This document shows, in pieces, positions 1 through 8,985 of a stretch of 20,853 nt of DNA. Position 1 is the stretch's first letter; every line of letters begins with the position of its first letter. Source of the stretch: a virus. The stretch is from the IMG/VR virus record IMGVR_UViG_3300025141_000962, positions 1 through 20,853 of that record, one strand, 5' to 3'. The notes under the pieces are model-generated. The model searched no databases. It had not been told where the DNA came from and saw only the letters and a list, made by a program, of their open reading frames with translations. Both the position numbers and the translations under genes were made by a program.

Positions 1-1339
1 AAAACAATCCGAGATTAATTAATTTAGCATGAGTACGCGGAATATTGGCCATGTCCGCAACTACTTGGTGAAAATCAGCTTCATCGTTTTTATATGAGTC
101 TACAACAGGTTCAACCGACGTATATTTTAGTTTCGACGCATAATGAACCACCAAACGGGGTTCTTGTTGACTGTAGTCAAACGCACCCCAAACACAATCT
201 TCTTCAGGTATGAATAATGACCGAATTAATGGCCCAATTTCCTTATTGCGCGCCGGAACCTGCTGTAAATTCGGGTTACTGTAGCTCATTCGACCGGTTA
301 ACGTCCCCCCACGTTCCGATCTTAGCTGGTGCACCTCTGCGTGTATACGGCCCTTGGTCTGATGTTCCAATAAAGTGTCAATAAAAGTCGTATGGGCCTT
401 GTTTATCTCACGTGCTTCCAAAATCATACGCGCAAGCGGATGCTCATTTTCCCATAGACTAGCTTTATCAAATTTAGGCTGGTTAGATTTTGGTGTTCGT
501 TCATAAGGCAGACCAGCAGCATCAAATGCTTTGGCTACACTCGCAGCGGCCCATAGTTCTACAACCACGCCGTAGTCTTTTTCAATTTGTTTGATGATTT
601 TTGCTTCGCGCTGACTTAAATCACGCTTGAGTTTTTCTGCTTTATCTAAATCAACACGCACACCCTTTTCCCGCATGTCGATTAAACAAGGAAGCACACC
701 CATTTCAAGATCAAAAATTTCTGTAAGGTTATCTTGCGCCAGTAGATTTTTAAAATGGTTCCATAAACGCAAGGTTAATCGTGCATCTTGTTCGGCATAA
801 GGGCCGACATATTGGGGCGGTAGACGCCACATATCGGATTTGGAATTAACCCCCCATTCTTTTGCAGCTTCCTCTAGCAACGCTTCGTCCTTACGCTCCT
901 GTAGGTAGGTTTTTCCAAGAGCATTAAGCGCGTAGCTCATACGATTTTCATCTATCAAAGGGGCCGCGATCATTGTGTCAATAATAAGGCCATTAATTTC
1001 ACGTATGCCGCTGGCTCGCAGCCAACCGATATCATACTGAGCATTATGGAATATTTTATCTGACGGGGCCTGCATCTGCTTTTTCAGCCAACGCCATACG
1101 ACGGCTTCGTCTAAATTGCCGCCTGTTTCGTGCCTAATGGGGAAATAATAAGCGTTTTCATCAGCAGCAACCGCTATACCGATTACATGCCCGTCTTTAC
1201 GGGGCCATCCGCTGCCACGCTCCCTTAAATGGGGGTCATAAGTTTCAAGATCGACGGCTATTTGTTTGAATTGTGATAGGTCTGGAAATTCTGAGGGCGG
1301 TACCCATTCACTCTTCGGTTGGAACAATGGTAGTTGCAT
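1..1339 (-). CDS. Family A DNA polymerase with 3'-5' exonuclease domain (3' end cut by window)
   Basis: This is the phage replicative polymerase. The gene runs off the left edge, leaving about 446 N-terminal residues. It starts at the ATG at 1339 (MQLPLFQPKSEW...), 32 bases inside the preceding gene, with a weak site (AGAAAGAAG) upstream. The exonuclease domain comes first: Exo I is VDLET, Exo II is HNAQYDIGWL and Exo III is YAEQDARLTL. The polymerase domain follows, with TGRMSYSNPNLQQVPARN, then motif A (FDYSQQEPRLVVHYA). The sequence ends inside motif B in the O-helix (RTHAKLINLGLF). All key acidic residues seen are intact. I see no DnaJ-like zinc insertion between the domains. It is the last visible gene of the block holding the putative base-modification genes, so it could be co-expressed with the enzymes that prepare its nucleotides. 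The family call is firm; only the C-terminus is unseen. Confidence 0.95.
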   Translation of the reverse strand, partial: MQLPLFQPKSEWVPPSEFPDLSQFKQIAVDLETYDPHLRERGSGWPRKDGHVIGIAVAADENAYYFPIRHETGGNLDEAVVWRWLKKQMQAPSDKIFHNAQYDIGWLRASGIREINGLIIDTMIAAPLIDENRMSYALNALGKTYLQERKDEALLEEAAKEWGVNSKSDMWRLPPQYVGPYAEQDARLTLRLWNHFKNLLAQDNLTEIFDLEMGVLPCLIDMREKGVRVDLDKAEKLKRDLSQREAKIIKQIEKDYGVVVELWAAASVAKAFDAAGLPYERTPKSNQPKFDKASLWENEHPLARMILEAREINKAHTTFIDTLLEHQTKGRIHAEVHQLRSERGGTLTGRMSYSNPNLQQVPARNKEIGPLIRSLFIPEEDCVWGAFDYSQQEPRLVVHYASKLKYTSVEPVVDSYKNDEADFHQVVADMANIPRTHAKLINLGLF

Positions 1340-1664
1340 CTGGGTCTTCTTTCTCATATATATAATCAGGCACTATGGATCCTAACCGTACCATTTCTGC
1401 TTCAACCAGTAAAAGGTATCTACGTAGGTCGCGTATATCGTCAATTACACCTGTTTTCTCAGGATGCTTTTCAATAGTGCTAAATACATTATAGGCGTAT
1501 TTTAATGTGAGATTTTCAATACGGTCCCATTTACGAGCCAACATCATAAAAGCGCCTACTCCTCCGCGCTTTTTCCAACTATCGGCATAGGCTTTTTCGG
1601 CTTCGCATAAGGAAATATGGTCATTAAGGCACAGGTCATGCACAATTTCTAAAATATTACGCAT
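1308..1664 (-). CDS. Nmad1/DUF1599-like small all-alpha protein
   Basis: This is a 118-residue soluble, mostly helical protein. The segment YADSWKKRGGVGAFMMLARK followed by WDRIENL, and then IDDIRDLRRYLLLVEAEM, matches the pattern of the Nmad1 (DUF1599) family as I remember it. In that family a Y-x-DSW-G region and a D-x-x-D-L-x-x-Y helix recur. Nmad1 was named a nucleotide-modification-associated domain because its genes sit beside DNA base-modification enzymes in phages; it resembles MazG-type NTP pyrophosphatases in being all-alpha. The role is not proven, but it may bind or hydrolyse a nucleotide. The start has a strong site (TAGAAAGGAG, 9 bases before the ATG). The first 8 bases overlap the end of the thymidylate synthase-fold gene, and the end overlaps the polymerase start by 32 bases, so all three are probably translationally coupled. 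Confidence 0.65.
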   Translation of the reverse strand: MRNILEIVHDLCLNDHISLCEAEKAYADSWKKRGGVGAFMMLARKWDRIENLTLKYAYNVFSTIEKHPEKTGVIDDIRDLRRYLLLVEAEMVRLGSIVPDYIYEKEDPDATTIVPTEE

Positions 1665-2655
1665 TTGGCTTTCTCCTTTCTAACCATTCCAAACAAGCAT
1701 GTCGCCAATCTTCTATAAGCATGTCTGCCTTAACGGTATCAAACGCAGCTTGCCATTCGCCGTTTTTCCAATGGTCCCACGTTTTTATCATAGGCCCAAT
1801 TAATTCTGTGAAAAATGGCGCATTGAGAAATGAAGAATCATTAGTATCCATATCACGTGGTATTCTAAATCTTGTATTGGAAAAATTGTCATAAAGTTCC
1901 GGACTATGGCACGGTAACCCTTCCTCTGGTATGCGGTATGCGTCAAACACGTTTTTATAGGCGTGGAAACTATCGCTTATTTGAACATACGGCCCCATCG
2001 CAACGCCAAGGCTGTCAGCAATGTATTGTTGCAACATACTGAAATGCACGGCATTGGCTCCGTACGCCCCCCAGATAATATCATTGCTGCGACAGCATAC
2101 CGTCATATGCAACTCAGGGAAATAATGTATATACTTGGGTGAGTGCCCCAATTCATCGCGCAATTTGAAATACACATGCGTATTGCAGGGAATGTCAACC
2201 TTATTGACGTTTAAGTCGTATGCGGCATCCCACATCTGTAAAACACAGCGTCGGTCGATAGGGTCTTTTTTCAAACGGCGAATAATTATATTTATTTGAT
2301 CAAGCAGCCTGTAGTCCTGTGAGAAATGGTTACGCCATCGGTAACCATAGGCCCCGTGAAATACTTCGCCATCGTCGCTGTATTCATCCATACGCTTGTT
2401 GTACCGAACCATGGATTGCACATCCCTTTGGCCGCGCAACATCCACAGGCTTTCCATTAAATGAAAAAACGGGTTGGCATCACGCACAGGGTTGAATAAC
2501 ACCCGTTCCCAAGGCTTTTCGTAAACGGTCGCCACGCAGGTGGGATATTCTAACACATCCCCGGCACGTGATCGTCGCGGTGTGCCTTCTTCATACAAAA
2601 GCTTCATGCCGCTTACAAAGGCGTCGTTTACATTTCGAGCATGTATGGTGTGCAT
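1657..2655 (-). CDS. Thymidylate synthase-fold enzyme (TS or dUMP hydroxymethylase)
   Basis: This enzyme methylates, or possibly hydroxymethylates, C5 of dUMP using a folate donor. At 332 residues it has the family's landmarks: an N-terminal phosphate-binding arginine region (RRSRAGD, 27-33), the RR pair from the partner subunit (DPIDRRCVLQMWD, R135-R136), the catalytic cysteine in DIPCNTHVYF (C157), the pyrimidine-binding asparagine in GAYGANAVHFSML (N201) and the SDSFHAY histidine (H231). Asparagine at 201 points to a uracil rather than a cytosine substrate, since dCMP-specific relatives have aspartate there. It cannot separate a thymidylate synthase from a dUMP hydroxymethylase. The start at 2655 is chosen because GGAGGAAAC lies directly upstream; an in-frame 25-residue extension to 2730 has no such site. 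Its place among putative 5-hydroxymethyluracil-modifying genes makes the hydroxymethylase reading plausible. Confidence 0.9.
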   Translation of the reverse strand: MHTIHARNVNDAFVSGMKLLYEEGTPRRSRAGDVLEYPTCVATVYEKPWERVLFNPVRDANPFFHLMESLWMLRGQRDVQSMVRYNKRMDEYSDDGEVFHGAYGYRWRNHFSQDYRLLDQINIIIRRLKKDPIDRRCVLQMWDAAYDLNVNKVDIPCNTHVYFKLRDELGHSPKYIHYFPELHMTVCCRSNDIIWGAYGANAVHFSMLQQYIADSLGVAMGPYVQISDSFHAYKNVFDAYRIPEEGLPCHSPELYDNFSNTRFRIPRDMDTNDSSFLNAPFFTELIGPMIKTWDHWKNGEWQAAFDTVKADMLIEDWRHACLEWLERRKPNA

Positions 2656-2714
2656 GTTTCCTCCAATTAGGCACCCTACCCCTACTGTACTTGTTTCTTG
2701 CCCCCTCAGGGGCC

Positions 2715-3713
2715 TTACAGGGCCTCCCAAGGGCGTTTAATTACCTTAGTATAAGGCCCCAAAGCCAAAGCACGAGCAACGGCTTTTTTATCGTTCTCAG
2801 TTACAGAGGGCCATGTTTTTTGTCCTTTATGGTCTGGCAACAATCCAGGTCGATACGTTAAAGCATCACACCCAGCACACGGACCAAATTCCCTATCGCC
2901 CTCATACAGCATTGCTCGCATAGCGTTGAATTCTTCTGACTGCCAAATCGTATCTAAGTCAGTATCAAAAGCATTGCCTATCCGGTAGTAACCGCGCCAA
3001 TCATTACAACATCCCGCAACACTGCCATCCCAACGTATGCTCATTTCTCTAAAAGGTTTACCGCATCGTTTACCCTTGGCGACAGGACTAGGTGGAAAAG
3101 CCGATCCGCAATGGTTATTCAAACTGGCGTGATTGCCCGACGTTGCGCTTGATATATCATCTACTACAACAATATCATGTTCAGTTGATTTACGCCGCTT
3201 ATGTGGATTAGCAGACTTAACCAAAGGGTAATCATAAATAGGGTATGGTCCCTTGTAGAGAAGCTTTACCTTTGGAACAATATTCACAGCTTCATAGTTG
3301 TCTAAAAGCAACACATTCAAACCTGCTTGCATCAGCGTGTTGATTTTTTCAGTGGTATCGCCACCCAGCAATCCACCCCCGTTACTGGTCATCATCAAAT
3401 GGGTCGTGGGCAAATAATCACGCAACACACGCACTATTTCCACATGGTCGGGGTTCATGGTTGGCTCACCATGCATGGCCATTTCTATACGGGGGTTCCA
3501 TTTGCGGCCTTCTGTGTGGGTCTCCCGTAAACTTGTGGCGAACCATGCAGCGTTTTCAACAGTCATGAATTTATAGGGCCTACTATTCTTTCCTGTTGTA
3601 CTGCTCGGCCCATGCGCCCCATTGTCACGTATGCCTTGAATACCGCAAAATGCGCAAGCTAGATTGCAGCCCTCGGTTAATTCAAACTGAATGCAAAACG
3701 GCGGCTCCTGCAT
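2715..3713 (-). CDS. Radical SAM protein with SPASM/twitch-type C-terminus
   Basis: This 332-residue protein should cleave S-adenosylmethionine at a [4Fe-4S] cluster to start radical chemistry. The cluster motif is CNLACAFC (C16, C20, C23; CX3CX2C). It is followed by the SAM-contacting MAMHGEP segment, the equivalent of GGEP. The C-terminal part has CGKPF-x(n)-WDGSVAGCCNDW, which fits CX12GX4C, then IGN...IWQSEEFNAMR and a final PCAGC. That is the layout of a twitch/SPASM domain holding one auxiliary iron-sulfur cluster. The start at 3713 is preferred because GGAGGTGA lies 7 bases upstream; the in-frame ATG at 3743 has no site. Its ATG shares one base with the upstream TAA (TAATG), so it is coupled to the glycosyltransferase-like gene. 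Substrate unknown. Context suggests DNA base modification, since a radical SAM enzyme takes part in thymidine hypermodification in Pseudomonas phage M6. Confidence 0.9.
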   Translation of the reverse strand: MQEPPFCIQFELTEGCNLACAFCGIQGIRDNGAHGPSSTTGKNSRPYKFMTVENAAWFATSLRETHTEGRKWNPRIEMAMHGEPTMNPDHVEIVRVLRDYLPTTHLMMTSNGGGLLGGDTTEKINTLMQAGLNVLLLDNYEAVNIVPKVKLLYKGPYPIYDYPLVKSANPHKRRKSTEHDIVVVDDISSATSGNHASLNNHCGSAFPPSPVAKGKRCGKPFREMSIRWDGSVAGCCNDWRGYYRIGNAFDTDLDTIWQSEEFNAMRAMLYEGDREFGPCAGCDALTYRPGLLPDHKGQKTWPSVTENDKKAVARALALGPYTKVIKRPWEAL

Positions 3714-4684
3714 TAATTGGTCACCTCCAAAAAGTTTTCCCATGCCCTTGTGGTTTGCTTATCCAACTCAATTAAATAATCTTGACCAAAAAGCCGACGT
3801 TGCTCATAAACGATTTGCTTGTACGTTGGTAAGGCTTCCAACACATCTTCAGCGCAATCCACTACAGGAAACAAATAATCACCTTCCTCGGGAAAAGCTG
3901 TCCGCATAGTATTTCGCGTACTTTCATCAAAAAACATAGCTACCCCTGCCGATAAGCATTCATAAAAACGATTGGCAGGTGAGTTGTAATGTGTGTGGAT
4001 ATGTTCGTCTTCAATATAAACGGTAGCCGCAAACTTAGATAAATCCCGCATAGACTTCCAGCTACCGTGTCTGGTCATATTTGGCGCGAGTGCTTTGAAC
4101 TTTTCGATCGCCTTCCCATTGGTAGAAATGTGCACGGGATAAGGCGCATTTTCAAAATACTTCTTAAAATAAAACTCCCTATCCTTTCTATAGGAACCGT
4201 AATACATCAATCCCTGTATTTTATCCTTAAAGTGGATTTCTTCTAAAGGTATAGGGTGCCATGTTAAAAGGTTCCAATTAACATAAGCATTTCCCGGACC
4301 AGTGGCATTTTCAGGAATATTACTCCATATGAAAGGAGGAGAACTATCAAAAGGCTGCTTAAAAGACCAACCACGTTCATCGCGCAATACTTTCTGCACC
4401 TGACTAATAGGCTGCACCGTATAGTCATTTTGAACATAAATTAAATTCTTACACCTACGAATTTGATCAGCCAGTTCTAGCCGTAATTCTGCCTCTGCAA
4501 ATGCGCCCATACTGTTGACGTATAAGATTGTGTCATAAGTGTGGCGTAAAAAAGGCCGACCCTTTTGTATACCGTCAACTAAATCTGCATTCAGATGATT
4601 AGCAAGATACTGCGCAACTCGCGCACTAGCTATGCTCGTCTTTGGACTGCAATAAGTCAGGTGTACTACGCAAATGTTCCTCAT
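3713..4684 (-). CDS. GT-B-like glycosyltransferase family protein
   Basis: This is a 323-residue soluble protein. The N-terminal half (ICVVHLTYCSPKTSIASARVAQYLANHL) looks like a Rossmann-type first domain. The second half has GLMYYGSYRKDREFYFKKYF and then SPANRFYECLSAGVAMFFD near residue 250. That resembles the C-terminal nucleotide-sugar-binding signature of GT-B glycosyltransferases, where an E-x-LSAG-hydrophobic motif contacts the donor. No signal peptide or membrane segment is visible. The first 59 bases overlap the upstream HMUDK-like gene, but a strong site (TAGAAAGGAG, then AAAATGA) lies before the ATG, so the start is well supported. It sits between two putative base-modification enzymes and could put a sugar on modified DNA; the match is to the fold, not to a known DNA glycosyltransferase. 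It could also act on a host surface glycan or another acceptor. Confidence 0.6.
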   Translation of the reverse strand: MRNICVVHLTYCSPKTSIASARVAQYLANHLNADLVDGIQKGRPFLRHTYDTILYVNSMGAFAEAELRLELADQIRRCKNLIYVQNDYTVQPISQVQKVLRDERGWSFKQPFDSSPPFIWSNIPENATGPGNAYVNWNLLTWHPIPLEEIHFKDKIQGLMYYGSYRKDREFYFKKYFENAPYPVHISTNGKAIEKFKALAPNMTRHGSWKSMRDLSKFAATVYIEDEHIHTHYNSPANRFYECLSAGVAMFFDESTRNTMRTAFPEEGDYLFPVVDCAEDVLEALPTYKQIVYEQRRLFGQDYLIELDKQTTRAWENFLEVTN

Positions 4685-5594
4685 TCATTTTCTCCTTTCT
4701 ACGGGCACGGTACCGCGCCCACTTAGAACGTTCTTGTCCCGGCGGCTGATAAATACTGCGTGGTTTACCTTCACCATTTTTCACACGCTCATATTTATCA
4801 AACTCACATAAACTATGTTCTATTTCCCGCATTTCTAACGTGGGTACATAGGAATGTTTTAAGGCATTCACCTTTAACAACAATTTCTTCATTTCTTCGT
4901 TCCAGCCATGCTTGCTGGAGGCAAACTTCAAGGGTCTACCAAAAACTCTATTCAAGCCACGCTTGGCCCCAGGACCGGCATTGGCCCATGTGTTGATGTC
5001 TGTTGCATCTCGAAGAACAGGGGTATGGCGTAAATCACTTACAAGCTCATAGGCCATAAATCCACCACCACCCCAACCCTGAAGCTTGCCCAAATTTTGA
5101 TGCATCTGTTGCAAGCTACCTCTACTGGCAATATCAGATAAGAGTTGCCTATAGTCCCAAATAGCAAACAAAAACTCATCCACTACTATGTTTTCCTTTG
5201 GGTCTTTTTTGCCTTGATTCGTTATAATGTACGCCCCCGTGAAGACCTTTTGCTTGTTGTCTAAACGTTCACGGGCGATACGTTTAAGGTGTCTAGGGTT
5301 ATAGATATCTTGCCAGCCTCCAATAGCCTCACACATTTCCATGGTGCCGAACATACGAAACACGGCACAGTTATAGATCATTAAGGGGTATGATTGGTGC
5401 GCGTTTGGATTGGTTAGGTTTTCTCGCATCCAAACTGTAGTTTTATCAAGCTCGCGAAATACATTCGTAAATTTGTATTTTTGAAGGATTTTATCCTCTG
5501 TCCACGGCCATGGCAAACCTTCCTTTTTCCTGCAATAAATAGCATGGCGCTGATTTATCCAGTAAAGGAAGTTGTAAAACGGCTGTGTTTCCAT
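4626..5594 (-). CDS. 5-hmdU DNA kinase helical-domain / alpha-GPT pyrophosphorylase-like protein
   Basis: This 322-residue helical protein looks like the family found in phages that hypermodify thymine: the 5-hydroxymethyl-dU DNA kinase helical domain, related to alpha-glutamyl/putrescinyl-thymine pyrophosphorylases. Landmarks are INQRHAIYCRKKEGLPWPWT (14-32), KYKFTNVFRELDKTTVWMRE (39-58), IYNCAVFRMFG (73-83), TGAYIITNQG (119-128) and a glycine-rich helix-turn segment, GWGGGGFMAYELVSDLRHTP (173-192), ending in WANAGPGAKRGL. The RH, FTNVFRELD and GPGA-x-RG signatures drive the call. No P-loop kinase domain is fused to it. In known systems such proteins act on pyrophosphorylated 5-hydroxymethyluracil in DNA, replacing the pyrophosphate with an amino acid or amine. 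The ATG at 5594 is 9 bases from AAGGAG; a GTG at 5600 would be too close. The basic tail (RYRARRKEK) may touch DNA. Confidence 0.7.
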   Translation of the reverse strand: METQPFYNFLYWINQRHAIYCRKKEGLPWPWTEDKILQKYKFTNVFRELDKTTVWMRENLTNPNAHQSYPLMIYNCAVFRMFGTMEMCEAIGGWQDIYNPRHLKRIARERLDNKQKVFTGAYIITNQGKKDPKENIVVDEFLFAIWDYRQLLSDIASRGSLQQMHQNLGKLQGWGGGGFMAYELVSDLRHTPVLRDATDINTWANAGPGAKRGLNRVFGRPLKFASSKHGWNEEMKKLLLKVNALKHSYVPTLEMREIEHSLCEFDKYERVKNGEGKPRSIYQPPGQERSKWARYRARRKEKMNEEHLRSTPDLLQSKDEHS

Positions 5595-5698
5595 AAACAC
5601 GTTCTCCTTTCTTATATCTTAGAATCTTAAGAGGAAACGTCCTATCCCACCATTGGACGCCCCCAGCACGTGGAAGGAAATGTGGGACGTGAACCGAA

Positions 5699-6301
5699 TT
5701 AGCTGCTTGCTTTAGAAGCTTTATGGACTTTAATGTACCCAGCTTTTTCTGCAAGTTGTAAGTCTTTCGCACTTCCAGGAAGACCAGCATCCCTGATGGC
5801 TGCAACAAACTCAGCCACGGTAATACCTTTCTGCATATAAGACCAAATCTTATATTTTTTGGTTCCTGGGCGAATTGGGATCTTATTTTTAATAATTTCA
5901 ATTAGATCCTCACGGCCATATAGTCTAGACCGCTTAGTTCCGGTTTTTGATGACTTAACCGTTACCTCTTCTCGTACTTCATCTAAATCTGTTATAGTAG
6001 ACATTGCACCCTTCCTATAAGGTTTTGCCTTGGTTGTGATAATATCCCAAACAACTTTAGCTAAATCCTTTTTGTAAATTGTTTGGGAAGGTTTGTACCT
6101 TACCACTTCAGGTAAGGAGAGCAAGCAGTGAATTCCAATAAGCTCATCCTCCTCATAGTATTTCAGCATGTCTTCAACATCACGTAGAACCGGGGTGAAT
6201 TTATTTATAAAGCCAGACTCTTTTGCCTCTCCCACAGTTTTAAATCTCATGGCGTACGAAGCATCCTTATGGTAATCATCAACTACAGCAAAGCAAATCA
6301 T
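5699..6301 (-). CDS. Hypothetical protein with a possible C-terminal winged-helix-like domain
   Basis: I do not recognise this 200-residue protein. It has a compact N-terminal region (MICFAVVDDYHKDASYAMRF...), a charged basic middle (KSSKTGTKRSRLYGREDL) and a C-terminal block from about residue 143. That block (YKIWSYMQKGITVAEFVAAI, then KDLQLAEKAGYIKV) resembles a small winged-helix DNA-binding unit, of the kind seen in many phage proteins. It starts with a clear site (TAGAAAGGAG, 6 bases before the ATG). It is the first gene after the terminator at 6317-6352, and so is probably the promoter-proximal gene of the base-modification and polymerase block. The 104 bases after it hold only a weak bulged inverted repeat. 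A regulator of the downstream block is one guess, with no direct support. Confidence 0.7.
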   Translation of the reverse strand: MICFAVVDDYHKDASYAMRFKTVGEAKESGFINKFTPVLRDVEDMLKYYEEDELIGIHCLLSLPEVVRYKPSQTIYKKDLAKVVWDIITTKAKPYRKGAMSTITDLDEVREEVTVKSSKTGTKRSRLYGREDLIEIIKNKIPIRPGTKKYKIWSYMQKGITVAEFVAAIRDAGLPGSAKDLQLAEKAGYIKVHKASKASS

Positions 6302-6380: not shown

Positions 6381-7406
6381 TTATGCAGCCTGCGCCATTT
6401 CTGTGGCAAGGGTCAAAGCATTACGCTTGTTGGTCGCCTTGCGGCCAAACCAAGCATCATGCAAAGCGTGTTGTCCCGTGCCTTGGTGGTCCATAGCGTA
6501 GGTTACAGCATTGACGGCACCCCAGTATGTTCCCTTGGCTGACTTTAGGTCAGCTCCAGGGCTGTTTTCAAACGCATCATACACTTTCTGCGCTTGCGTA
6601 CCGTTTCTGAACTGGTCACGTAAGGGGACCGCATTACCTTCAAACCCCTTGGCTTGCTCATCCTGCAGCAAATCTTGCGCAAACAGTTGAGCAACAAACC
6701 GCTCAAATTGCTCGGGCTTAATTTGCGTAGAAGCCAAAAATTCAGTTTGCTGTTGGAACCCTTCAAGCTGTTCTGTAGCCAAGCCCAACGCTTTTTCAGC
6801 TTCCTTAAATATGGATGTGGTTAACTGCACACGATGCGCCAACCTGAACATACCGCCCAAAGCAGTCGCGCTTTGCAACGCCATACTCAAGGTATTCCAG
6901 CACACTACTCGTACCGGGGTATTTAGAATTTTAAACGCCTTCCCAGGTTTGTGGCTATTAGAAACAAGGCAATAACCCCGTACCTCATCGCCACCAGGAA
7001 GGGTAAACCCATCAGAATATTTGGCTAACGCCCAAATATCCCTACCGTCACGAAGGCTACCTGCTGTTTCCATTTGCATTTGCCCCGCTTCACAGAACTT
7101 TTTGTAAAATCCCATAATTTCTGTGTTTTGGAACGGGTGCCAACCTTCTGGGCTACATACGCCTAAAATAGCGTTGGTATCATCCCGAACAATGTGATTG
7201 TGGTTGGGGTCGTTCATAAGACCCACATCCTCACTGTACTCGGGTTCTACAATGGTATACGAGGGCCGCTTACTCACGGTCCACGTAATTTGTGCGGCTT
7301 CAGCCATTTCATCAGGGGTAAGGTCATCCGATACGGCATGTCCTTCTTTATGCCACGGCACCCCGCCTGATTCGGCGTAAGCCATCGAGTCTACATATGC
7401 TGGCAT
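6381..7406 (-). CDS. DUF932 phage/plasmid-like protein
   Basis: This 341-residue protein belongs to the DUF932 family (also called phage/plasmid-like protein TIGR03299), whose biochemical role is unknown. Typical features are the N-terminal GGVPWHKEGHAV, the NAILGVCSPEGWHPFQNTEI strand region near residue 80-100, GRDIWALAKYSDGFTLPGGD, and the central NTPVRVVCWNTLSMAL. A C-terminal segment, GTYWGAVNAVTYAMDHQG, resembles the family's end. The protein is soluble, and full length for the family. The start has a good site (TAGAAAGGA, 7 bases upstream). It is the last gene before the terminator in the replication operon, 82 bases after the helicase. Those 82 bases contain an imperfect hairpin and a poor promoter-like pair that I would not call. 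Confidence 0.88.
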   Translation of the reverse strand: MPAYVDSMAYAESGGVPWHKEGHAVSDDLTPDEMAEAAQITWTVSKRPSYTIVEPEYSEDVGLMNDPNHNHIVRDDTNAILGVCSPEGWHPFQNTEIMGFYKKFCEAGQMQMETAGSLRDGRDIWALAKYSDGFTLPGGDEVRGYCLVSNSHKPGKAFKILNTPVRVVCWNTLSMALQSATALGGMFRLAHRVQLTTSIFKEAEKALGLATEQLEGFQQQTEFLASTQIKPEQFERFVAQLFAQDLLQDEQAKGFEGNAVPLRDQFRNGTQAQKVYDAFENSPGADLKSAKGTYWGAVNAVTYAMDHQGTGQHALHDAWFGRKATNKRNALTLATEMAQAA

Positions 7407-7488
7407 TTGCTATCCTTTCTAATACAGTTGCCATGTATATATAGTAGCGGCGTTTGCAACGATAACAACCGCTATTTTATCTATTGTT

Positions 7489-8985
7489 TCACATAGGAAA
7501 ATAGTATTGCGTCTGCGGCATAATGATATGCAAGCACTCTCTGGCACGGGTAGCTCCTACATAAAATGTTCGTAGTTCGTCGCTTTCATATTCTCGCATC
7601 TGCACCCACGCCTTGCGTGAAAGATCGGTCAAAAGCACCACGTTTTGGGATTCCTTTCCTTTGGCCGCATGGATGGTTGATAAACGAACACGAGGCTCTT
7701 CGGTAAGCTTTTCCCCACGACGCAATAGTGCAATCATATACTCACGCTCATGTATGGAAATATTATCAAATGCTTCATGCCAGATATTTGAGGTTTGCAG
7801 CCCATGGCTTTGTTGGAGCTGGTCAAGGGTAAACATTTCATATTCAGTTACGTCCCTTAATCCTCTTTCTTTCTTAGCAACGTTGCCGCCAGCTTTGAGG
7901 AATTGATATATTTTACGAACTGCGGCTGATGATACAGCGCCCCCCTTGCGCAGTTTTTCCCAATCCTGGATACTGGTGACGAGCGACTTACGAACACTCG
8001 GTATGTTATTTTTTGAATAAAACCATCCCTCGCGCCTGCATTGTGTTTCTATAGGTTGAAGCATGTAGTGGGTACGGGCTAACACGAGCCACTTGCCAGC
8101 CGTCATATTGATGTAGTCGAACTTAGTATGGTACTCTAATTCTCCGTCTTCGTCCCGTGGAAACCATTCCTTTTCATACCTATGGTCAATGCGCCGTACA
8201 ATGGATTTGGCGAAACGAGCTATGTTCTTAGGTAACCTAAACGATTTGTCTAGAACTATTGTTTCCCCTGTCAAATTTAAAAATTGCTCGACATCTGCTC
8301 CAGCCCATTTGAAAATAGCTTGGTCATCATCACCCGCTATGACGCAGTTTTTAGAAACCTCCTCTAATAAATATACCATTTGCCATTGTAGACGATTAAG
8401 GTCTTGGGCCTCATCAATAAAAATTGTTTCCAAAAATGGAACGGGTTTTTGCAAAAGAAATAACGACAGCATATCGGTATAATCAACAATTTCCCGGCGC
8501 TGCTTGTATAGTTTCAATGCACGATCTACACGCTCCACCTCTAACCAGGAAATGTCCAAAATATCTTCATGCCATTGCTGCTCTACAGAAACATCCCGTA
8601 TGCGAGCTTTATTTATAAGGGCTAGAATTTCGTCGCCGCGCTCATTGCCGTAAAATATACCAGTGTCTCGATCCAAGCCCCCCGAAATACGTAAGCCAAG
8701 CCAGTCCCCAAATTCCTGGTAGTGTTCGTCTCCCATCACCTGTGTGCTTTTCAACCCAAGTTGACGAAAGGCCAATGAATGTAATGTTCTGAAAAACGGT
8801 AAGTCTTTACGGCTAAGTTGAAATTTCTCACATGCGCGGGTTATTGATTCTTCATTAGCCGCGCGAGTAAAGGCAAAATAACCAATGTAGCGAGGCGGCG
8901 TTCCTGTTTCTAAGGCGTTATCGACAAGTTCTAATAGCTTGCTTGTTTTCCCTGTGCCAGGAGGGCCGAGATAAATATTCCTCAC
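7489..8985 (-). CDS. UvrD/Rep-like superfamily 1 DNA helicase
   Basis: This is a 498-residue ATP-dependent 3'-5' helicase of the UvrD/Rep type. Motifs in order are Walker A GPPGTGKT (7-14), motif Ia YFAFTRAANE (36-45), TLHSLAFR (67-74), Walker B FIDEAQD (189-195), motif III GDDDQAIFKWAG (218-229), KSFRLPKNI, motif V STIHAAKGKE (about 440) and motif VI FYVGATRARECL (about 475). It is shorter than bacterial UvrD (about 720 residues), as phage versions often are. The start is GTG at 8985, inside the GTGA overlap with the primase stop; GGAGG lies 9 bases upstream. The tight overlap suggests the primase and helicase are made in similar amounts and work together at the fork. An out-of-frame ATG nearby (8987) is not the start. 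Confidence 0.93.
   Translation of the reverse strand: MRNIYLGPPGTGKTSKLLELVDNALETGTPPRYIGYFAFTRAANEESITRACEKFQLSRKDLPFFRTLHSLAFRQLGLKSTQVMGDEHYQEFGDWLGLRISGGLDRDTGIFYGNERGDEILALINKARIRDVSVEQQWHEDILDISWLEVERVDRALKLYKQRREIVDYTDMLSLFLLQKPVPFLETIFIDEAQDLNRLQWQMVYLLEEVSKNCVIAGDDDQAIFKWAGADVEQFLNLTGETIVLDKSFRLPKNIARFAKSIVRRIDHRYEKEWFPRDEDGELEYHTKFDYINMTAGKWLVLARTHYMLQPIETQCRREGWFYSKNNIPSVRKSLVTSIQDWEKLRKGGAVSSAAVRKIYQFLKAGGNVAKKERGLRDVTEYEMFTLDQLQQSHGLQTSNIWHEAFDNISIHEREYMIALLRRGEKLTEEPRVRLSTIHAAKGKESQNVVLLTDLSRKAWVQMREYESDELRTFYVGATRARECLHIIMPQTQYYFPM

Follow-up and report, generated by a model that had tools for sequence, protein, structure and literature searches.

Which modified base might be made by the genes at one end of IMG/VR virus record IMGVR_UViG_3300025141_000962, and by which chemistry? 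The whole stretch analysed here, referred to as the window, comprises 20,853 nucleotides and is a genome fragment (20.9 kb) from an uncultured phage. It carries five consecutive open reading frames (ORFs) on the minus strand, followed by a DNA polymerase A gene that is truncated at the window edge. An initial annotation, made from the DNA letters, had described five adjacent or overlapping minus-strand genes ending in the polymerase, and had read them as a hypermodification locus based on 5-hydroxymethyldeoxyuridine (5hmdU) with a possibly new, perhaps glycosylated base. The genes are present where it placed them, and its reading of the locus is well supported by our analysis. We posit that the locus is probably a cassette for the glycosylation of 5-hydroxymethyluracil (5hmU) with tailoring by a radical S-adenosylmethionine (SAM) enzyme, and that it is kinase-free as far as detected.

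The helical protein and the hydroxymethylase

The outermost gene of the cassette (4626-5600, minus strand) encodes a protein that is, judged by its sequence, the helical domain of 5hmdU DNA kinases and not a kinase. It matches HMUDK_hel (PF18723, E 2.2e-52), lacks a kinase domain and is 35% identical to gp55 of phage M6, while its profile found nothing meaningful among PDB sequences. Earlier it had been labelled HMUDK/alpha-GPT pyrophosphorylase-like, at 4626-5594. The profile searches uphold the HMUDK part of this label, so the protein is not unrelated to that family, but nothing indicates a pyrophosphorylase activity. There is an in-frame ATG at 5594, but it is the second start of an ORF that opens with a GTG at 5600.

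In M6 the helical domain (gp55) adjoins a separate P-loop kinase (gp54). Upstream of the kinase lie an amino acid:DNA transferase (gp51), a pyridoxal phosphate (PLP) enzyme annotated as threonine dehydratase (gp52) and a radical SAM protein (gp53), and downstream of the helical protein follow a hydroxymethylase and PolA. In the window, HMUDK_hel, hydroxymethylase and PolA are ordered as in M6, but the catalytic genes differ. PolA (2-1357, minus strand; PF00476, E 7.3e-27), which is cut by the window edge, is the neighbour in M6 and in the relatives too.

The hydroxymethylase (1657-2730, minus strand) has the thymidylate synthase (TS) fold, as initially annotated (Thymidylat_synt, E 9.4e-22), and is of the deoxyuridylate hydroxymethylase type (PHROG 5131, E 2.9e-99). 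Its identity to M6 gp58 and similar deoxyuridylate hydroxymethyltransferases of phages is about 42%. Compared with the PDB, its profile matched CMP 5-hydroxymethylase best (1.2e-29), and no thymidylate synthase appeared among the PDB matches at the same threshold. The catalytic Cys182 and Asn226 are conserved, with Asn226 unchanged in 8/8 aligned sequences (the window protein and seven relatives). In thymidylate synthases, an Asn at the equivalent position goes with a uracil substrate. Since Asn226 is thus a residue of uracil type, where CMP hydroxymethylase has Asp, the likely substrate of the enzyme is dUMP.

The same residues bear on the identity of the base. If the TS-fold enzyme were a dCMP hydroxymethylase, the neighbouring glycosyltransferase (GT) would make glycosyl-5-hydroxymethylcytosine as in phage T4, where bgt adjoins the dCMP hydroxymethylase gene 42 and the polymerase gene is close by; the best structural match of the window GT is indeed the hydroxymethylcytosine glucosyltransferase BGT. 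Yet the closest relatives of the TS-fold enzyme are M6-type deoxyuridylate hydroxymethylases, all eight sequences have the uracil-type Asn226, and HMUDK_hel is named after 5hmdU kinases. We therefore consider a cytosine base very unlikely.

Neither the P-loop 5hmdU kinase (PF18748) nor the amino acid:DNA transferase (ADDT, PF18724) was found in the window. Among related records, PF18748 detected no kinase in the first 12, with M6 as a positive control, and in 28 further records it detected one in L167, L197 and L199 only. Because PF18748 misses divergent kinases, a second profile (A9) was built from ten 5hmdU-kinase-type P-loop proteins. It recovered all six kinase-bearing controls, including one (L228) that had not been used in building it. 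The other 31 of the 37 records searched gave no kinase, and they include 18 records of the window lineage that are 50-69 kb long. These 18 records are probably near complete, because complete circular relatives measure about 60 kb. Outside the structural genes of two near-complete relatives, P-loop motifs lie in UvrD; the one exception is a short G010 ORF, which overlaps in part with another gene. The ADDT search covered 12 records, two of them 52-57 kb long, and found nothing, with M6 again positive; it took in two of the 18 window-lineage records of at least 50 kb. M6-type PLP and M6-type radical SAM proteins, which were sought in the relatives' loci only, occurred in none of the 140 loci surveyed.

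Since two defining enzymes of the M6/ViI pathway were sought and not found, we do not class the window locus as a member of that pathway, as judged from its gene content. In an M6/ViI-type route, 5hmdU in DNA would be phosphorylated and an amino acid would displace it; kinase, transferase and PLP enzyme would have to be encoded beyond the window, and the GT would decorate something else. The shared order of HMUDK_hel, TS-fold enzyme and PolA and the fragmentary state of the window would fit such a route. The lack of a kinase in the 18 long window-lineage records, of ADDT in the 12 records searched, and of the two other M6-type proteins in the relatives' loci argues against it, and we regard it as decidedly unlikely.

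The glycosyltransferase and its exchangeable relatives

The gene following that of the helical protein (3713-4684, minus strand) encodes a GT that is, according to its predicted structure, a relative of T4 beta-glucosyltransferase (BGT). The AlphaFold2 model, based on a 50-sequence alignment, reached a pLDDT of 92.2 and a pTM of 0.90, whereas an earlier alignment of four sequences had given a pLDDT of 41 only. In a comparison with the PDB (VIA-align), T4 BGT ranked first (Z 20.1, root mean square deviation 3.5 Å, 289 residues), followed by T4 AGT (Z 17.4), SenB as the first non-phage GT (15.8) and other GT-B enzymes. The label GT-B-like, for which Pfam gives a weak match below the cut-off (PF13524, E 0.025), is made firm by this structural match.

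The active site points in the same direction. The GT profile found nothing meaningful among PDB sequences, and its alignment to T4 BGT by hhalign scored 40.3, whereas none of 40 shuffled sequences exceeded 22.9. This alignment pairs R166, R169, D226, R239 and E242 of the GT with R191, R195, D258, R269 and E272 of BGT. For D87, the partner is D100 (mutated to Ala in PDB entry 1nzd, D100A), a pairing seen only in an extended, low-confidence alignment. We take D100 of BGT to be catalytic, and R191, R195, R269 and E272 to bind the nucleotide sugar. Across the 50 members of the GT family, D87, R169, D226, R239 and E242 never vary and R166 hardly does. We infer that the acceptor of the window GT is 5hmdU-containing DNA and the donor a nucleoside diphosphate (NDP) sugar.

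In IMG/VR, 588 relatives of the helical domain and 60 of the radical SAM protein were found, and the 140 surveyed loci were seeded with these two proteins. Co-occurrence in other phages, a question raised by the initial annotation, is borne out: the gene set recurs among the loci examined, which makes the arrangement more than chance. The helical protein and the hydroxymethylase occur together in 84 distinct loci, and 79 of these carry members of four GT families (TAGT alone in 32, a 346 aa family in 19, a GT4-like family in 17, the BGT-like family in 9, and two families in 2). Exactly one family is present in 77/84. The five loci left over comprise L167, which has a P-loop kinase instead, and four loci of a single lineage without GT or kinase. 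Strictly between helical protein and hydroxymethylase, exactly one GT gene is found in 71/84 loci and two in 0/84. Four unrelated transferase families at one position suggest repeated replacement. The GT, which had been set apart as the outlier of the gene set, is rather the centre of the pathway.

The four families differ in how well they are characterized. TAGT (PF20691), backed by a Pfam match (E 1e-13), includes the T6 enzyme that attaches a second glucose to DNA (PMC13216743). A family of 435 aa is clearly GT4-like (Glycos_transf_1, best 6.6e-9). For the 346 aa slot family (A3/A10) the GT identity is weakly supported, with one of 16 members matching PF13524 (2.7e-5), no meaningful PDB sequence match and a negative hhalign comparison with the window GT family.

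The survey also bears on the idea that the GT and the radical SAM enzyme have a glycan of the host or the virion, unrelated to DNA, as their target and are neighbours of the other genes by chance. Glycosyltransferases and HIGH-type nucleotidyltransferases that serve surface polysaccharides do occur in phages (PMC7824862). However, with the window GT family as the only seed, 59 distinct loci were recovered, of which 37 hold the helical protein, 35 the TS-fold enzyme and 19 the radical SAM protein. Together with the four unrelated GT families recurring between helical protein and hydroxymethylase, and with a GT fold closest to a DNA glucosyltransferase, this leaves a role in glycan synthesis extremely unlikely.

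Beside the transferase slot, some loci encode a HIGH-motif nucleotidyltransferase fused to a cupin of mannose-6-phosphate isomerase type (L018:6114-6977, L022:6120-6989, L023:5967-6998). This gene, which by its place beside the transferase points to a sugar, probably makes the activated sugar for DNA modification. Two complete relatives of the window backbone, DSL-LC04 and 023Pt_psg01, lack the helical protein and the cassette, but keep the flanking replication genes, with UvrD and PolA adjacent or two small genes apart. Cassette-free relatives with intact flanks indicate that the cassette is a module.

A cultured example is provided by Escherichia phage EP_H11 (OP688485, 111 kb, complete isolate record, L261). 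At about 9.6-16 kb it carries a cluster of roughly 6 kb, whose genes are mostly annotated as hypothetical: a PIG-L deacetylase, a BGT-like GT, HMUDK_hel (PF18723, 4.4e-35), a P-loop protein, a TS-fold enzyme and a YfbR-like deoxynucleotidase. The P-loop protein matches AAA_28 and, weakly, deoxynucleoside kinases. No 5hmdU DNA kinase was found anywhere in the EP_H11 record, and no radical SAM gene in the stretch examined. As a cultured phage, EP_H11 makes the proposed chemistry testable.

Kinases and GTs are found together elsewhere, in some unrelated phages. Loci with both a BGT-like GT and a 5hmdU-kinase-type P-loop gene include L197, L209, L213, L221, L223, L226, L227, L233 and L242. A general mutual exclusion of GT and kinase, which does hold in the window lineage, was rejected when the GT-seeded survey found both together, and the GT is accordingly not a simple stand-in for the kinase. 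Those GT and kinase phages possibly follow a phospho-sugar route. For the window, such a route would mean that a 5hmdU DNA kinase, too diverged to be detected or encoded elsewhere in the genome, acts first and that the GT builds the sugar on the phosphate, similar to the phosphodiester-linked sugars of SP-15 type. The GT family adjoining 5hmdU-kinase-type P-loop genes in several other phages speaks for it, as does the modified thymine of SP-15 DNA, which bears a sugar and a phosphosugar (PMC5977210). Against it stand the lack of a kinase relative in the window lineage and in EP_H11, and the non-structural P-loop motifs of the two near-complete relatives, which apart from the overlapping G010 ORF are those of UvrD. 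We judge this route unlikely for the window.

The radical SAM enzyme and the proposed pathway

The third enzyme (2715-3743, minus strand) is a radical SAM/SPASM-twitch protein with a CxxxCxxC motif, in agreement with its initial label (Radical_SAM PF04055, 2.4e-7; SPASM PF13186, 1.9e-13), and it is not of the M6 family. Cys26, 30 and 33 and Cys227, 245, 246, 289 and 292 are aligned across its relatives. Its only sequence relative in the PDB is BtrN (E 1e-8), which we take to oxidise an alcohol of an aminocyclitol. A gene of a GT family lies within 4 kb in 40 of the 45 distinct radical SAM loci, whereas helical protein and hydroxymethylase are both present in 28. In L098, the radical SAM gene lies beside Pfam-confirmed TAGT, Tet_JBP (6.9e-25) and ParB-like genes, and in loci of this type the hydroxymethyl group is expected to come from Tet_JBP oxidation. 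The transferase, and not the source of the hydroxymethyl group, is thus common to the loci, which points to the sugar or the glycosylated base as the target of the radical SAM enzyme.

Other loci of this radical SAM family show further neighbours. L096 and L100 resemble L098 in having the gene beside TAGT and a small cupin. A search of genome contigs gave two good matches only, both in metagenome-assembled genomes of Patescibacteria (L252, L253); these contigs, which are probably of phage origin, also carry GT, HMUDK_hel and TS-fold genes. In L082, an adenylylsulfate kinase (6954-7559; PF01583, E 1.6e-57) adjoins the radical SAM/TAGT genes, and a neighbour at 5210-5992 looks sulfotransferase-like by eye, with no Pfam match. 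In some phages the DNA-bound sugars may therefore be sulfated. The helical-protein/radical SAM/TAGT/TS cassette of L091 includes an FkbM-type methyltransferase (5004-5702; PF05050, E 1.9e-5) and, again by eye, a possible acyl-carrier-protein-like gene (5687-5980).

We propose the following route for the window. The TS-fold enzyme (1657-2655) would hydroxymethylate dUMP, as its family and residues suggest, and after the nucleotide has been raised to the triphosphate, the adjacent PolA would insert 5hmdU opposite A, very probably in place of thymine. The BGT-like GT (3713-4684) would then move a sugar from an NDP-sugar onto the 5-hydroxymethyl group in DNA. HMUDK_hel (4626-5594), by its association with these genes, probably binds or flips 5hmdU:A and chooses the sites to be modified. 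The radical SAM/twitch enzyme (2715-3713) may finally alter the attached sugar, for example by a BtrN-like hydroxyl oxidation. The predicted product is a base-J-like, further tailored glycosyl-5hmdU that would shield phage DNA from nucleases. The M6 5hmdU kinase prefers TG and TC sites (PMC6449724), and if the helical protein carries this preference, glycosylation here should share it.

Several points weigh against this proposal. To our knowledge, the chemistry has been described for none of these phages. GT-B folds are common, and among the 50 PDB matches listed for the GT all have Z-scores near 14 or more, while the BtrN match of the radical SAM protein spans the twitch/auxiliary-cluster domain only. 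Most of the relatives are, like the window, fragments, and as the surveyed loci share ancestry, their counts are not independent events. In other phages (e.g., L197, L213, L228, L242), a 5hmdU-kinase-type gene lies next to the BGT-like GT. T4 BGT glucosylates 5hmU in single strands or in 5hmU:G mispairs, and not in duplex 5hmU:A, a limit apparently due to contact with the opposite G (PMC4111573). Given this inactivity on 5hmU:A, the window GT must differ from T4 BGT or need help. The helical protein could supply the recognition of 5hmU:A that is missing in T4 BGT.

With these points considered, we still favour glycosylation of 5hmU followed by radical SAM tailoring. A broader view, which we put forward as a tentative possibility somewhat short of even chances, is that HMUDK_hel is a general recognition subunit for 5hmdU:A with interchangeable partners (the M6 kinase and at least four GT families), that the radical SAM enzyme performs radical chemistry on DNA-bound sugar, for which we know of no example, and that environmental phages contain a kinase-free family of glycosyl-5hmdU DNAs.

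The remaining gene of the cassette (1308-1664, minus strand) encodes a small, highly conserved companion protein of 118 aa with the motif YGDSWKKRGGVGAFMMLARKWDRIEN. Its gene is present in 98 of the 140 loci of the survey, mostly with the hydroxymethylase on one side and PolA on the other. The Nmad1-like label it had received does not hold: PF07659 (Nmad1/DUF1599) gave no match in the window or its relatives at E up to 10 and none for seven family members at E up to 5, and this identity was rejected. The protein and six relatives have no meaningful Pfam family match at all. The radical SAM and TS-fold ORFs both overlap their neighbours, and comparison with relatives points to ATG 3713 and ATG 2655, respectively, as their likely true starts; with these, most of the gene overlap disappears. 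Beyond the cassette, the relatives of a 200 aa protein (window 5699-6301) match a pair of distinct short genes in sister phages, of which one adjoins HMUDK_hel and the other the DUF932 gene; a fusion or paralogues are possible. A UvrD-like helicase gene of the relative L004 (2957-4416) is broken into two frames, by frameshift or sequencing error. No tRNA or Rfam features were found in the window.

Comparison with known systems

The M6/ViI systems (5-NedU, 5-NeOmdU) share with the window HMUDK_hel and a deoxyuridylate hydroxymethylase beside PolA, in the same order. They differ in that the window has no detected kinase or transferase, with the PLP enzyme not found in the relatives' loci, and has a radical SAM protein of another family plus a DNA-glycosyltransferase-like enzyme. 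A second role would thereby be given to a protein family known only from the kinase pathway. T4 likewise encodes a TS-fold hydroxymethylase (gp42) and a BGT-fold DNA glycosyltransferase near its DNA polymerase, with active-site residues in common. In the window, however, the hydroxymethylase is of uracil type, HMUDK_hel and radical SAM are added, PolA replaces gp43, and the GT is about 15% identical to BGT. The proposed system would thus correspond to a T4-like glucosylation shifted from hmC to 5hmdU. If such GTs accept 5hmdU:A, they would offer a tool for tagging 5hmU, which T4 BGT cannot do in normal duplex.

The phage clusters of TET/JBP plus TAGT have the same radical SAM family beside a gene of a DNA-glycosyltransferase family, but their hydroxymethyl group is expected to come from Tet_JBP, whereas a TS-fold enzyme serves in the window, and the GT family differs. 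The cassette described here may explain some of the solitary TAGT glycosyltransferases that were called unexplained in phages (PMC13216743). A sugar-bearing hypermodified thymine in phage DNA is also known or indicated for SP-15 and YerA41 (PMC5977210, PMC9023294). SP-15 builds on a dihydroxypentyluracil scaffold with ThyX-type enzymes and a cluster resembling teichuronic acid genes, and for YerA41 structure and pathway were left unresolved in PMC9023294. N-acetylglucosaminyl-5hmU (GlcNAc-5hmU) was suggested for phage Acadian, as cited in PMC4111573. Glycosylated 5hmU or sugar-bearing thymidine is thus known as a kind, and it is the kinase-free set of helical protein, GT and radical SAM enzyme that appears new, in a comparison that did not cover the main pathway papers. 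If the radical SAM enzyme acts on DNA-bound sugar, radical chemistry would join the known ways of building DNA glycans.

The predicted product resembles base J of kinetoplastids (beta-D-glucosyl-5hmU; PMC4111573), which likewise has a sugar on 5hmU in DNA. The route would differ, as the 5hmU of the window is made before replication by a hydroxymethylase and not by JBP oxidation, the GT is another one, and a radical SAM step is added. The window would thus represent a phage route to base-J-like DNA via a hydroxymethylase.

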